Shown one piece after another: positions 1 to 31,671 of a stretch of 64,000 bases of DNA; position 1 is the stretch's first letter, and the number at the start of each line of letters is the position of its first letter. The stretch is from Natronorubrum daqingense (lineage in GTDB: Archaea; Halobacteriota; Halobacteria; Halobacteriales; Natrialbaceae), in assembly GCF_001971705.1 (NCBI RefSeq), contig NZ_CP019327.1, positions 2,852,001-2,916,000 of the forward strand, in the 5' to 3' direction. The translations under genes and the position numbers were made by a program. Below the pieces are notes generated by a model. That model made no database searches, was not told the DNA's origin, and was given only the letters and a program-made list of their open reading frames with translations.

Positions 1-1539
1 AGTGTTGATGCTGTTGACGCCGTTTTTCTCGAGTAAAATGATCGCGAAGAGGACGAGTTTGCTCTGTGTCGGCAGCGTCCGAACGACTTCGACGACTCGG
101 TCGAGTTCGATCTTGTCCTGTGCCTGGCGGACGTGTTCTTCGACGATCGTCTCCGTCTGAGATCGTTCCGCTAACTCGCCTGCCGTGCGAAGCAAATCGA
201 GCGCTCGCCGTGCGTCACCGTGTTCCTGTGCGGCGAATGCAGCACAGAGGGGAATAACGTCGTCCGAAAGTGCACCTTCTTTAAACGCAACCTCCGAGCG
301 GTGCTCGAGGATATCACGCAGTTGATTCGCGTCGTAAGGTGGGAAAACGATCTCTTCTTCGCCGAGTGAGGATTTGACGCGAGGATCGAGAAAGTCGGTG
401 AACTTCAGATCGTTCGAGATACCGATAATCGACACGCGCGAGTTCTCGAGTTCGGAGTTCATTCGCGAGAGGTTATACAGCGTATCGTCGCCGCTTTTCT
501 CCACGAGTTTGTCGATCTCGTCGAGCATGATGACGACGACGCGTTCGTCGTAATCGACGGCGTCGAAAAAGACGCTGTAGACGCGGTCTGTCGGCCATCC
601 AGTCATCGGAACTTCCTCGAAGGATTCCTTGTCGTCTTCGAGTTCGGCGATTCGATCGTCGATATCCTCGCTCGTTTCGAACGGCGTCGACTCGAGTGGG
701 TGTGGCGATGATTCCGCCGTGGCCGGTGTGTCGGAACCCGCCACCGTCGACTCGGTAGGTTCCCCCTTCGTTTCAGCTGGAACCGCGGAAGGGTGTTCGG
801 AGCCATCGCCCGACGATGCGTTCGGAGTAGCTCGATCATCGGTGTGGGTATCAGTTTCCGATGATTCGTCGGTAACAGCGTGCGCATCTACGTCATCTGG
901 CGATCTCAACTCCGTGGGTGTCCCCCCGGATGTATCGTCGTGGTCCGCCGTCTCTGAGAACAACGTCTCCGACCCGGTGTCAGTTCCAGCGGAAACGTCG
1001 GGGTCCGACTGAGACGCTCGATCGTACTCCTCGAATGCCTCTTTGAGCGCCTCGAGGTCGTCGATTCGGTCGTCGATGCGTTCTTTGTTCTTGTCGATGA
1101 ACTTGTTCGCGAGTTGCGCGAGCACGCGATACTGCGTATCAGTGACTTCACAGTTGATGTATTCGACGTCACAGGGAACGCTATACTTCTGGGACGTACT
1201 CTCGAGTTCTTTGCTGACAAATTTTGCACTCGCAGTTTTCCCAGTGCCAGTTTTCCCGTAGATGAGAATGTTCGAGGGTGTCTCCCCGCGCAACGCTGCG
1301 ACGAGAATCGTCGCCATCTTGTTGATCTGGTCGCTTCTGTGTGGGAGCTCGTGTGGCGTGTAGGAAGGACGAAGCACTTCCTTGTTCTCGAAAATCGGTT
1401 CGCCGCTGAGCAGATCGTCGAATAGCCCCTGGCTCGAGTCATTGCCATCGAGATCGGATCGCTCGAGATTCGAGAATCCGTGTGCCTCGTCGGTATCGAC
1501 GTGGTCTGCGCCTGTGGGTTCTGAATTATCGTCTGACAT
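1..1539 (-). CDS. orc1: Orc1/Cdc6 replication initiator (C-terminus beyond window)
   Basis: AAA+ initiator that binds origin recognition boxes and loads the replicative helicase. The frame is open from the ATG at 1539 to the window edge (513 codons), so the gene is cut and its C-terminal winged helix is only partly present. Walker A GKTGTGKT lies near residue 95 and Walker B VVIMLDEID near 335-343; the sensor/lid region follows. Between Walker A and B, residues of about 174-288 form a Ser/Thr/Asp/Glu-rich insert with no conserved look, unusually placed inside the AAA+ core. The gene points away from a large intergenic region with ORB-like sites, the usual arrangement of a haloarchaeal origin. 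One ORB-like site sits 15 bp ahead of the start, suggesting autoregulation (inference). Which Orc1 paralogue this is cannot be decided here. Confidence 0.93.
   Translation of the reverse strand, partial: MSDDNSEPTGADHVDTDEAHGFSNLERSDLDGNDSSQGLFDDLLSGEPIFENKEVLRPSYTPHELPHRSDQINKMATILVAALRGETPSNILIYGKTGTGKTASAKFVSKELESTSQKYSVPCDVEYINCEVTDTQYRVLAQLANKFIDKNKERIDDRIDDLEALKEAFEEYDRASQSDPDVSAGTDTGSETLFSETADHDDTSGGTPTELRSPDDVDAHAVTDESSETDTHTDDRATPNASSGDGSEHPSAVPAETKGEPTESTVAGSDTPATAESSPHPLESTPFETSEDIDDRIAELEDDKESFEEVPMTGWPTDRVYSVFFDAVDYDERVVVIMLDEIDKLVEKSGDDTLYNLSRMNSELENSRVSIIGISNDLKFTDFLDPRVKSSLGEEEIVFPPYDANQLRDILEHRSEVAFKEGALSDDVIPLCAAFAAQEHGDARRALDLLRTAGELAERSQTETIVEEHVRQAQDKIELDRVVEVVRTLPTQSKLVLFAIILLEKNGVNSINT
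758..784 (-). promoter_or_regulatory. ORB-like site inside the orc1 coding region
   Basis: On the minus strand TCCAGCTGAAACGAAGGGGG matches the core and G-string of the sites at 2210-2238 and 2531-2560. It lies in the part of orc1 encoding the non-conserved acidic insert (about residues 252-261). Confidence 0.5.
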
Positions 1540-1553
1540 CCGTCGTACACATA

Positions 1554-1573
1554 CCCCCTTACTTCGAGTGGAA
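1554..1573 (-). promoter_or_regulatory. ORB-like site in the orc1 promoter
   Basis: Minus strand TTCCACTCGAAGTAAGGGGG. It lies between the orc1 start (1539) and a TATA-like AATATT near 1592-1600, so bound Orc1 could repress its own gene. Confidence 0.55.
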
Positions 1574-1700
1574 TCCAAGACCCAAAATCAGGAATATTGT
1601 GGGGTAGATGGCCCATATTTGGTGATCTACTACCAAACGTTCCTAACCGGGGTCCAGTTGATGCAAACGAAACAGAGGAAAACCAGGCTATTAAATTCTT

Positions 1701-2209: not shown

Positions 2210-2238
2210 CCCCCCACCCCTTCGTTTCAGGTGGAGCG
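2210..2238 (-). promoter_or_regulatory. Extended ORB, left flank of the AT-rich core
   Basis: Read on the minus strand: TCCACCTGAAACGAAGGGGT followed by a further GGGGGG. Its G-string points away from the AT-rich core, mirror-image to the site at 2531-2560. Confidence 0.75.
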
Positions 2239-2530: not shown

Positions 2531-2560
2531 GTCTCCAGTCGAAACGAAGGGGTGGGGGTG
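2531..2560 (+). promoter_or_regulatory. Extended ORB, right flank of the AT-rich core
   Basis: TCCAGTCGAAACGAAGGGGT followed by GGGGGTG. Same extended form as 2210-2238 but on the opposite strand, giving an inverted pair about 290 bp apart. Confidence 0.75.
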
Positions 2561-5263: not shown

Positions 5264-5693
5264 TTTCGTGGGTTGGGTCTTTCGGGTAGCCCGTTAGTCG
5301 AGTTCACCGGGTAGTCCAGTAGTAGCGTTCGGCCTGTTTGAGTGCCACCGGGTACGACCGTGACCAACGAGTCTCTCGAGGGAGTCGATTCCGAAACCAG
5401 AGCGTTTGGATTCGGTTCGCTCAGGCTCTCCTTAACAGACCCCTCTGTTGCAACTCCAGAACCTCACTTCTGGCGGCATACGACGGGACTATACAGAATA
5501 CATACTCCAGTTGAAATGAAGGTTTTCCAATGGTCTCACCCGTTTCGTTTTCCGAAGGGATCTAAGCGGACGCCACCCCTGCTCTGGGGATCGTCTCAAA
5601 TCGGTGCCCGTGAGTCTCGTTCGCGATGGAACTCGTCGGGGATCGGTAGGCGAGACAGATGGATTTAAGCGACGCGGTCGAGTTCAGTAGCGT
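5264..5693. other. 430-bp gap with a degenerate inverted ORB-like pair
   Basis: No gene seen. ACCCCTCTGTTGCAACTCCA (5439-5458) and TCCAGTTGAAATGAAGG (5506-5522) form a degenerate inverted pair of ORB-like sites about 47 bp apart. The rest shows no terminator hairpin with a T-run. Confidence 0.5.
5661..5670 (+). promoter_or_regulatory. TATA-like box
   Basis: GGATTTAAGC, centred 28 nt before the ATG at 5694. This fits a leaderless transcript for the small ORF and the gene behind it. Confidence 0.6.
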
Positions 5694-25991: not shown

Positions 25992-26924
25992 ATGGAGATC
26001 GATTTCGTCGAGGACCTCAAGCAGCCGGAGTATACCGGCGAGAACCGGTGTGAGCCGTGTACACTACTGAATCTCGCGATCGCGGTCGCCGTCGGTTCGC
26101 TCGTCGCACGGAAGACGAAACTCGGGGGCGCGCTCGCGATCGTCGTCTCGATTGGACTCATTTACCTTCGCGGGTACCTCGTTCCGGGAACGCCGACCCT
26201 GACAAAACGGTATCTACCGCCGGAAGTCTTGCGCTGGTTCGGAAAGGAACCGGAACCCGAACTCGCCAGCGGCGTCGGCGGCATCGATAGCGGTGGTTCC
26301 CCATCCAACGACGCTACCGACACGCCTGCAGCGGCCGCTGACTCACCGCCCGAATCCAACGGCGAGTCCAGCGGGGACGACGCACCCGAGGAACCGGTCG
26401 AACTCGACCTCGAGACGTTCTTTCTCTCTCACGACGTCCTCGAGCCATGTGCCGACCGCGACGATCTTTGTCTCACCGACGCGTTCGAGGCCGACTGGCT
26501 CGACGCGATCGACAAAATCGATACCGCTGGCGTCGATTCTGCCGACGCAATCGCCGCGTTCGGTTTCGAAGAAGACCCCGACGAATTCGATATCGAGTCT
26601 CGTGAGGACACTCAGTTGCTCGTCGCCTCACACGGTATCGCCGGCCGCTGGCCGTCCCGGCCCGCACTGATCGCGGATATCGCTGCCAGTGGCGTTCTCG
26701 AGGAGTGGACACCCGAGTGGGACGATCAGGGACCAGAAACGAAGGGGCAGGTGCTCAACGGACTTCGAATGTTCCTCGAAACCTGTCCGACGAGCGGCGG
26801 CGAGATCAGTATGGATGAGGAGGTCGTCGAATCGTGCTGTAGTTCACACGACGTGATCGCCGTCACCTGCGACGAAACCGGCGAACGACTGTTCGAACAG
26901 CGTCTCGACACCGTCGGCGCCTGA
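25992..26924 (+). CDS. Haloarchaeal membrane-anchored protein of unknown function
   Basis: 310 aa. A short N-terminal part with NRCEPCTLLNL (CxxC), two membrane segments (about 27-39 and 44-63), a Gly/Ser/Asp-rich linker (about 95-137) and a cytosolic acidic C-terminal domain (about 140-310) with FLSHDVLEPCADRDDLCLTD and ESCCSSHDVIAVTCDETG. The cysteine-rich segments are notable for a haloarchaeal protein. No family function known to me. Confidence 0.78.
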   Translation: MEIDFVEDLKQPEYTGENRCEPCTLLNLAIAVAVGSLVARKTKLGGALAIVVSIGLIYLRGYLVPGTPTLTKRYLPPEVLRWFGKEPEPELASGVGGIDSGGSPSNDATDTPAAAADSPPESNGESSGDDAPEEPVELDLETFFLSHDVLEPCADRDDLCLTDAFEADWLDAIDKIDTAGVDSADAIAAFGFEEDPDEFDIESREDTQLLVASHGIAGRWPSRPALIADIAASGVLEEWTPEWDDQGPETKGQVLNGLRMFLETCPTSGGEISMDEEVVESCCSSHDVIAVTCDETGERLFEQRLDTVGA

Positions 26925-29022: not shown

Positions 29023-29961
29023 TCAGTCCCGGTACCGATTCAGCGCGACCCCGACTCCACCAGCAGCGCCCGCTGCGCCGGTCGTCCCGGCGATACCGAG
29101 TTGGGTGGCGGCGACGGCGGAGTCACTCGCCGGCACGCTGTCGATAACCGGTCCCGGCGCGAGCATGCCGCCGAGAATCGAGTCGAAGGTCAGACGGATG
29201 TGGCCGAGCCACGGGATGCCAAATCGCGCTTTGCCGGTGACCCACTCGGACTTGACGACGTCACTTTGGCCCTCCTGCGCGCCGTACTGCTGGTCGTAAC
29301 CCTCGTTCGCGTCACCTTTCGTGATGAATCCATCGTGCTGGGCGGGACACGTGTCGATGTCGTCACAGCTCGTGTCGCCGATGATATCGTCGTCGGCTTT
29401 CGTGTCGACCCAGTTTTCGCCCTCTTCGACCCAGAAGTGCGCCCGGTGTATGATCGGCGTCTGGTGTTCCTCGCCGTTCGGCTGGAAGACGATCACGTCA
29501 CCCGGTTGATCGAACCGCTCGTGGCCGTTCTCTTCACCGTCCTCCAGCGGCACGATACCGGTGTCACCGGCAGGATCGTCGCCAACGAAGCGATCCTGAT
29601 CGATCACGAAGATGAGGTCTCCCTTCTCCATGTTCGGTTCCATGCTGCCACTCTCGACGGCGACTAACGGCGGCCAGATCCCACTGACGGCAAAGAGCAA
29701 GAGTCCGATGACCGCAACGATCGCAACGGAACTCAAAATGTCTCGAGCGAAGACGACGTTCCCCTCCTCGGCTTTCAGAAACCAGTGGACGATGCCGTCG
29801 TCTTCGATCGTCACTCGGTCGTCGCTGTTGGTCTGGCTGTCCGTCCCCATCCCCTCTGCGGTGTCGTTCCCCGCGTCGTCGCGTCGGTGGGTCCAGTCAC
29901 CGTCGGTATCGTCACTCGCGGGAGGATCGTCAGGAGAGTCGCCGGGGTTGGGGCCGCTCAT
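29023..29961 (-). CDS. Signal peptidase I (archaeal S26B)
   Basis: 312 aa from ATG 29961; an upstream in-frame start at 29988 is possible. Disordered acidic N-terminus, one transmembrane segment (IVAVIGLLLFAVSGIWPP), then the catalytic serine in VESGSMEPNMEKGD, the catalytic-histidine box in TPIIHRAHFW and the Asp box in FITKGDANEGYDQQYG, and a C-terminal hydrophobic Gly/Ala-rich segment. It cleaves Sec signal peptides at the membrane. The Ser-His-Asp arrangement is of the archaeal/ER type. Confidence 0.92.
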   Translation of the reverse strand: MSGPNPGDSPDDPPASDDTDGDWTHRRDDAGNDTAEGMGTDSQTNSDDRVTIEDDGIVHWFLKAEEGNVVFARDILSSVAIVAVIGLLLFAVSGIWPPLVAVESGSMEPNMEKGDLIFVIDQDRFVGDDPAGDTGIVPLEDGEENGHERFDQPGDVIVFQPNGEEHQTPIIHRAHFWVEEGENWVDTKADDDIIGDTSCDDIDTCPAQHDGFITKGDANEGYDQQYGAQEGQSDVVKSEWVTGKARFGIPWLGHIRLTFDSILGGMLAPGPVIDSVPASDSAVAATQLGIAGTTGAAGAAGGVGVALNRYRD

Positions 29962-30070
29962 CGTCACTGGTTTTGCTAGGGTCTGCAATCAACTTTCTGC
30001 TCTCTTGACCCGACCGAGTCGAACACTTCGAGCGAGCCTCGGTTCGCTGGAGGCCGATTTCATTACGGTA

Positions 30071-30102: not shown

Positions 30103-31671
30103 GTGCCACTCGAGGCGTCTGCACGGATCGTCAGCGAACTCACGAGTCGCGGGTACAACGCCGAACGAGAGGCGGTGACCAAACTCGCCGCTGCCGACGA
30201 TCCGCAGGCGACCGTCGAACGCGTCGTCGACGACCTCCCGCCGGGAACGCTCGTCGTTCGAACCGATCACGTCGAAACGGTTCTTTCTTCGAGCGATCCG
30301 GGTGAAAAACCACGTGACGGCGGCGATGTTTCGGGTTCTGACGAGACGACCACCGACCCCTCCGTTTCAACTGGAGATCACCGTCCTGATCCGACAGCCG
30401 TGGATGGGGCGGTTCCAGTTGAAACGAAGGGGTCTTCGGCTGGTGGACGATCGAGCGATCCAGCGGTACGGTCACTCGAGATCGACGGCGATATGACCGG
30501 TGACAGTACGGGAACGGGGGAATACGATGATTTCGTCGCCGTGTTCCGAGATCGACTCGAGACGTTGGGAGGGAAACTCCGCGGCCGTGTCAATCACCGT
30601 CCGGCGACGGCGATTCAGAACATGCCGGGCGGTGGCGAAGTCGGAATGGTCGGATTAGTCAACGACATTCGTTCGACTGCCAGTGGCCACTGGTTGATCG
30701 AACTCGAGGACGCGACGGGGACGTTTCCGTGGCTGGTGATGAAAGATCGAGAGTACGCCGATCTGGTCGAGGAGTTGCTCTGCGACGAAGTGTTGGCGAT
30801 GGAAGGGACGCTGTCGGACGACGCGGGAATCGCGTTCGTCGACTCGATGTACTTCCCGGACGTACCGCGAACGCACGAGCCCTCGACCGCGGACCGTCAC
30901 GTGCAGGCGGCGCTCATCAGCGACGTCCACGTCGGCAGTCAGGAGTTCATGCACGACGCCTGGAACCGATTTGCAGACTGGCTCCACACTCCCGAGGCCC
31001 AGCACGTCGAGTACCTGCTCATCGCCGGCGACATGGTCGAAGGCGTCGGCGTCTATCCCAATCAGGACGAAGAACTCGACGTCGTCGACATCTACGAGCA
31101 GTACGAGGTGTTCAACGAGTACCTCAAGCAGGTCCCCGGCGACATCGAGATCGTCATGATTCCGGGCAACCACGACGCGGTTCGACTGGCCGAACCCCAA
31201 CCCGGTTTCGACGAGGACCTTCGGGAGATCATGTCGGCCCACGACTCACGGATCGTCAGCAATCCCTCGACGGTCACGCTCGAGGGCGTCTCCGTCCTCA
31301 TGTACCACGGCGTCAGTCTGGACGAGGTGATCGCCGAGTTGCCCGAGGAGAAGGCGAGTTACGACGATCCGCACAAGGCGATGTACCACCTCCTCAAGAA
31401 GCGCCACGTCGCGCCCCAGTTCGGCGGGCACACCCGACTCGCACCAGAGGAGGAGGACTTCCTCATCATGGAGGAGGTACCGGACATCTTTCACACCGGC
31501 CACGTTCACAAACTCGGCTTCGGCAAGTACCACAACGTGCTCGCGATCAACTCCGGTTGTTGGCAGTCCCAGACGGACTTCCAGAAGAGCGTCAACATCG
31601 ACCCCGACGCCGGCTACGCGCCGATCGTGGACCTCGATACGTTAGACGTGACGGTCCAGAAGTTCAGTTAA
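30103..31671 (+). CDS. polD1: DNA polymerase D small subunit (DP1, exonuclease)
   Basis: 522 aa from GTG 30103. It is the proofreading 3'-5' exonuclease subunit of the archaeal replicative PolD. Domains: N-terminal helical region (1-70), a variable linker (about 75-135), an OB fold (about 165-265) and a calcineurin-like phosphoesterase domain (268-510) with SDVHVG, GDMVEGVG, PGNHD near 353-357 and TGHVHKLGFG. Metal-binding residues look complete. The linker carries two ORB-like sequences on the DNA (30356-30433). The catalytic large subunit is not in the window. Confidence 0.94.
   Translation: MPLEASARIVSELTSRGYNAEREAVTKLAAADDPQATVERVVDDLPPGTLVVRTDHVETVLSSSDPGEKPRDGGDVSGSDETTTDPSVSTGDHRPDPTAVDGAVPVETKGSSAGGRSSDPAVRSLEIDGDMTGDSTGTGEYDDFVAVFRDRLETLGGKLRGRVNHRPATAIQNMPGGGEVGMVGLVNDIRSTASGHWLIELEDATGTFPWLVMKDREYADLVEELLCDEVLAMEGTLSDDAGIAFVDSMYFPDVPRTHEPSTADRHVQAALISDVHVGSQEFMHDAWNRFADWLHTPEAQHVEYLLIAGDMVEGVGVYPNQDEELDVVDIYEQYEVFNEYLKQVPGDIEIVMIPGNHDAVRLAEPQPGFDEDLREIMSAHDSRIVSNPSTVTLEGVSVLMYHGVSLDEVIAELPEEKASYDDPHKAMYHLLKKRHVAPQFGGHTRLAPEEEDFLIMEEVPDIFHTGHVHKLGFGKYHNVLAINSGCWQSQTDFQKSVNIDPDAGYAPIVDLDTLDVTVQKFS
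30356..30433. repeat. Inverted pair of ORB-like sites inside polD1
   Basis: Left copy 30356-30375 reads, on the minus strand, TCCAGTTGAAACGGAGGGGT; right copy 30414-30433 reads TCCAGTTGAAACGAAGGGGT. They are 19/20 identical, inverted, 38 bp apart, with G-strings pointing outward as in the origin pair (2210/2531). They fall in the region encoding the non-conserved linker (about residues 85-110). Confidence 0.75.

Follow-up and report, generated by a model that had tools for sequence, protein, structure and literature searches.

Little is known about how initiation is limited at the main origins of archaea, and the one tested case that we found is oriC2 of H. hispanica. Downstream of cdc6E, this species carries oriC2D, an intergenic cluster of 11 ORBs in the Cdc6E/oriC2 system, which shows no origin activity and restrains oriC2, probably by titration; at its oriC1, mutating either G-string abolishes function (PMC3936714). 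In Escherichia coli, datA/DARS are off-origin initiator-binding sites that are proposed to tune initiation. In the Thermococcales, Cdc6/Orc1 reportedly binds a cluster in the DP1 gene both in vivo and in vitro, a result ascribed to Matsunaga et al. 2007. Berthon et al. 2008, who cite Matsunaga et al. 2007, state that four Thermococcales have ORB and mini-ORB repeats within their DP1 gene (PMC2643942). Finally, the main haloarchaeal ORB survey by Wu et al. 2012 covered intergenic regions only (PMC3528665), so that ORBs embedded in coding sequence would escape it.

Here we describe such coding ORBs in a 64,000-nucleotide stretch of Natronorubrum daqingense DNA (contig NZ_CP019327.1, positions 2,852,001 to 2,916,000; hereafter the window), where an inverted pair occupies about codons 85-111 of polD1. 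The features of the host gene are the following.

30103..31671, plus strand: polD1, encoding DP1, the small subunit of DNA polymerase D (522 aa, GTG start; Pfam PF04042)
30295..30447, plus strand: codons of the disordered DP1 linker that hosts the pair (residues 65-115), hypervariable save for the ORB codons
30355..30375, minus strand: left ORB TCCAGTTGAAACGGAGGGGTC, polD1 residues D-P-S-V-S-T-G; 35.1/40.2 bits with the oriC1-ORB PWM
30376..30413, no strand: spacer between the 19-mer cores, 38 bp, fixed in length and variable in sequence, not AT-rich
30414..30434, plus strand: right ORB TCCAGTTGAAACGAAGGGGTC, polD1 residues P-V-E-T-K-G-S; 39.3/40.2 bits with the oriC1-ORB PWM

The locus resembles the Thermococcales cluster in that, in both, the gene for this polymerase subunit has ORBs within its coding sequence and lies near oriC and cdc6. 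It differs in consisting of one inverted pair of full halophile-type sites at near-fixed spacing instead of ORB and mini-ORB repeats. With oriC2D it shares the character of a non-origin ORB group near an origin (PMC3936714), but it is built of only two ORBs, which are coding and of the oriC1 type. The haloarchaeal oriC1 has the same ORB core in the same inverted arrangement, whereas the polD1 pair sits inside a gene, has neither the AT-rich region nor the TGGGGG and has its sites 38 bp apart, as against about 250-340 bp at oriC1. The likeness to datA/DARS is one of analogy, since initiator and boxes differ and there is no homology. We found no earlier report of the haloarchaeal pair in a literature search lacking most subscription journals. 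Given the DP1 repeats reported before in the Thermococcales (PMC2643942), we regard it as a new, geometrically fixed and haloarchaea-wide variant.

The two polD1 ORBs are identical at 20 of 21 positions and inverted, with their G-strings pointing outward. An initial annotation of the window had proposed such a pair with the polarity of the origin pair; it is placed exactly, pattern and PWM scores identify both halves as real ORBs, and the G-strings face outward at polD1 and oriC1 alike. The PWM was derived only from the oriC1 ORBs of 27 relatives, and its reversed version gave no match of at least 10 bits in 1.65 Mb. Both sites match the core TCCASYYGAAACRRRGGGG without a mismatch. In mismatch-tolerant pattern searches this core has only six perfect matches in the 3.84-Mb genome, all inside 35 kb (two at oriC1, two in polD1, one within orc1 and one intergenic), and the pattern GAAACGRAGGGG has 11 matches against 0 when reversed. 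Hence the polD1 pair is of the oriC1 ORB type and not a dispersed repeat, an option that the annotation had kept and that falls with these counts. The pair is far from chance, and chance is excluded. The lone intergenic perfect ORB (L074 5761-5779, minus strand, corresponding to G000:C1:2847761) lies 4.2 kb left of the window and about 50 bp from a tRNA-Gln gene, on the side of its 3' end. A core without the TCCA half, GAAACGAAGGGG, was also seen at window positions 26736-26747 (plus strand) within the ORF 25992-26924.

The features of the origin region, together with the conserved neighbour of polD1, are the following.

1..1578, minus strand: orc1/cdc6 of oriC1, running off the window to about G000:C1 2851734; provisional start codon
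761..781, minus strand: coding ORB within orc1 (PAETKG), a perfect match with codon-level conservation in relatives
985..1005, plus strand: weaker inverted ORB within orc1 (DPDVSAG), 19.2 bits
1552..1572, minus strand: degenerate ORB at the orc1 5' end; a site at the same place recurs in most Natrialbaceae
2215..2235, minus strand: oriC1 left ORB with extended G-string GGGGTGGGGGG
2534..2554, plus strand: oriC1 right ORB with extended G-string
29023..29988, minus strand: sec11-like signal peptidase, a conserved polD1 neighbour (Peptidase_S26 at E 0.00057, which falls short of the curated cut-off; synteny by tblastn)

The oriC1 ORBs flank an AT-rich region with orc1 on one side and oapC on the other. 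The orc1 gene is assigned by its position next to oriC1 and by its resemblance to the polD1-linked orc1 of relatives. In most of these, the gene order is oapC, oriC1, orc1, sec11, polD1, with oriC1 and polD1 about 3-6 kb apart. In the window, the orc1-oriC1-oapC block is reversed relative to sec11-polD1 and the two lie 28 kb apart, with the pair intact; compared with the relatives, the arrangement of positions 1-31671 amounts to a rearrangement close to the origin, by inversion or translocation. Like polD1, orc1 has an ORB embedded in a hypervariable insert, in which the codons TCT, CCA and GGG are fixed among relatives. Its weaker inverted partner stands at a spacing of 47 or 65 in some species and of 221 here. 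The ORB at the orc1 5' end suggests autoregulation. A degenerate inverted ORB-like pair was additionally noticed just 3' of oapC (5438-5458, minus strand; 5506-5526, plus strand). We rejected it as a conserved element, as such sites are merely scattered in relatives, with strong single sites in some and a good pair in one locus (L043).

Across the haloarchaea, the strict fixed-gap inverted pair (at most 3 mismatches) is present in 193 of 391 genomes, which represent 51 of 86 genera, with practically a single copy in each genome, and control patterns gave no match in the same 391 genomes. The host gene was checked in 52 fetched pair-bearing genomes (L079-L108 plus L109-L131, with one genome common to both sets) and is polD1 in 51. 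The exception, L109, has a weak pair within orc1 and another pair about 3 kb away. Two genomes hold two identical copies, of which the one examined lies in polD1; the second copies probably reflect duplicated assembly ends. Among 73 polD1 loci collected by protein similarity, the sites occur in most Natrialbaceae species and also in other families. Several lineages retain one strong site, and Halobacterium salinarum (L066) has neither, so the pair is not indispensable. When a 393-genome sample of the phylum was searched with a relaxed related pattern, no genome from outside the haloarchaea matched, but the ORBs of such genomes may differ too much for the pattern. Simple ORB patterns likewise revealed no equivalent pair in dp1 of 20 non-haloarchaeal Halobacteriota, where divergent ORBs may escape. 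One non-haloarchaeal member of the phylum has an ORB-like TCCAGTGGAAATAGTGGGGTC downstream of its dp1 match (L139 2987, plus strand).

The geometry is nearly fixed. When no spacing was assumed, 60 of 72 loci had 56 between the 22-mer starts, and a few had 53 or 68. In a second survey, which took in 70 genomes exclusively from families other than that of the window, the pairs summing to at least 20 bits had 56 in 32 genomes, 53 in 8, 68 in 2 and no other value. Strict helical phasing was considered and dropped, as it does not accommodate the -3 bp class; we claim no exact helical phase because the distance between inverted sites depends on the reference point.

The linker that surrounds the pair varies greatly in length and sequence among relatives, and the sites stay. 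This alignment gave the reverse of a site lost from a conserved linker and agrees with the annotation, which had put the pair in a non-conserved part of DP1; residues 65-115 also have a pLDDT below 50 in the predicted structure. In the polD1 alignment (464 scored codon columns, 71 genes), the five columns most anomalous in codon choice, measured as departure from the genes' own codon usage, are ORB columns, each fixed on a rare codon (TCT, ACT, GTT, GGA, CCA). Indeed, the wobble positions that are invariant in the ORB are fixed (ACT 61/63, GTT 53/54, GGA 65/65, CCA 65/68, TCT 33/34), whereas those at which the ORB is degenerate are free (Ser TCG/TCA 32/31, Val GTT/GTC 29/20). Synonymous recoding of the window linker reached at best 57.6 in 20,000 runs, against 74.4 for the real pair, and 71 of 72 genes have a pair that scores above every one of 300 synonymous recodings. 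The earlier suspicion that DNA constraint may dominate the protein is thereby borne out, and on this codon evidence the sites are kept by selection that acts at the DNA level.

The pair could instead be a by-product whose likeness to ORBs is accidental, be it a motif conserved in the peptide, a hairpin in the RNA or a dispersed repeat. The peptide at the sites does appear conserved, but rare-codon fixation and the recoding tests rule out a peptide motif. The arms can pair in RNA and the fold is strong (-61.4 kcal/mol, z -5.9), but compensatory changes between them are absent: among 151 distinct pairs, arm-arm identity is 16.72 positions observed against 16.81 permuted. The arms thus vary independently and lack covariation, so an RNA hairpin is rejected and the constraint falls on each arm by itself, as would be the case if each were bound by its own protein. 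With no dispersed copies in the genome either, we consider the by-product reading barely credible.

What binds is predicted to be Orc1, which we infer from sequence and precedent; that the pair is a selected Orc1-binding module in polD1 seems highly probable. The polD1 sites lack the oriC1-type TGGGGG extension (GGGGTGGGGG), most loci ending in GGGGTC. An AT-rich unwinding region is absent as well: the 38-bp spacer has a mean GC of 66%, compared with 70% in the flanks (60 loci). Without extension and AT-rich spacer, the pair is unlikely to be an origin. By its sequence features, the locus carries off-origin initiator boxes and probably does not act as an origin, in the manner of datA and oriC2D. 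Because oriC2D provides a precedent for an off-origin ORB cluster that restrains oriC2, we favour an Orc1 module that restrains oriC1. As an overall explanation, a non-origin Orc1 module acting as a distal regulator of oriC1 is the best we have and slightly better than an even bet, with both binding and the negative effect belonging to what we infer. That the pair acts mainly by restraining oriC1 is close to a toss-up, if a little short of it.

In the favoured model, the two outward ORBs at near-fixed spacing would hold two Orc1 (Cdc6A) molecules. The module would capture Orc1, perhaps in the form of a defined two-Orc1 complex, leaving less of it for initiation at oriC1; Orc1 occupancy inside polD1 may also affect polD1 transcription. 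The fixed spacing suggests such a defined complex over two independent sinks. Against restraint speak that two sites can soak up little next to the 11 ORBs of oriC2D, that simple titration needs less than a near-fixed spacing, that lineages with one site or none exist, and that the pair is 28 kb from oriC1 in the window. A related possibility, which we rate as rather unlikely, is that a haloarchaea-wide two-Orc1 complex of fixed geometry in polD1, with its weaker analogue in orc1, changes Orc1 activity as datA/DARS change that of DnaA, beyond soaking it up. If true, this would be an archaeal initiator-control locus hidden within a replication gene, with a parallel in the Thermococcales.

The genomic distance between pair and origin bears on two further readings. 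In 59 of 70 surveyed genomes polD1 is linked to oapC/oriC1. The pair is kept in 39 of these 59 and in 3 of the 11 unlinked genomes (polD1 at least 15 kb from oapC or on another contig, with distances judged by eye and genomes not independent), most of which keep one strong site. A tie between pair loss and departure from oriC1 is no more than suggestive, with four of the 11 unlinked genomes belonging to one genus. The linkage, together with a polarity equal to that of the oriC1 pair, would suit a distal functional part of the origin, be it a second Orc1 platform for MCM loading, a partner in looping between oriC1 and polD1, or a dormant origin. At an inverted ORB pair of Sulfolobus, neither site is dispensable and MCM is recruited between the two (PMC12141716), and the Thermococcales DP1 ORBs were read as suggesting that they take part in initiation (PMC2643942). 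The GC-rich spacer of just 38 bp, the missing extended G-string and the persistence of the pair 28 kb away in the window nevertheless make a distal origin part unlikely.

That same persistence far from oriC1 would fit a replication-linked control of polD1, in which Orc1, sitting 250-330 bp into the gene, serves as a transcription roadblock or repressor and expression tracks free Orc1. Other loci point this way: orc1 is absent within 10 kb in L028, which has the pair, and in L042, which has one strong site, it is about 8 kb off in L064, and in G141 polD1 is 58 kb from oapC. Additionally, orc1 itself has similar coding ORBs plus the 5' ORB. However, the polD1 sites lie deep in the coding region and not at the promoter, a roadblock needs no inverted pair of fixed spacing, and retention is lower in the unlinked genomes (by the counts above, in which related genomes are counted repeatedly), so that we judge this control improbable as the main role. 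The anatomy also allows handcuffing or nucleoid organisation, with the two sites holding sister or distant origin DNA together, as an intermolecular complex could form on inverted initiator sites held at a fixed distance; we see this as very unlikely.

In summary, the polD1 pair is a clear overlap of protein code and regulatory DNA code, and our preferred reading, the Orc1 module restraining oriC1, suggests that polD1 doubles as a control site for the start of chromosome replication. Since synonymous mutations can destroy the pair and leave the protein untouched, a clean experiment is at hand in tractable hosts. The conserved site in the same gene of haloarchaea and Thermococcales points to a shared layer of control, old or convergent, that links Orc1 and polymerase D.
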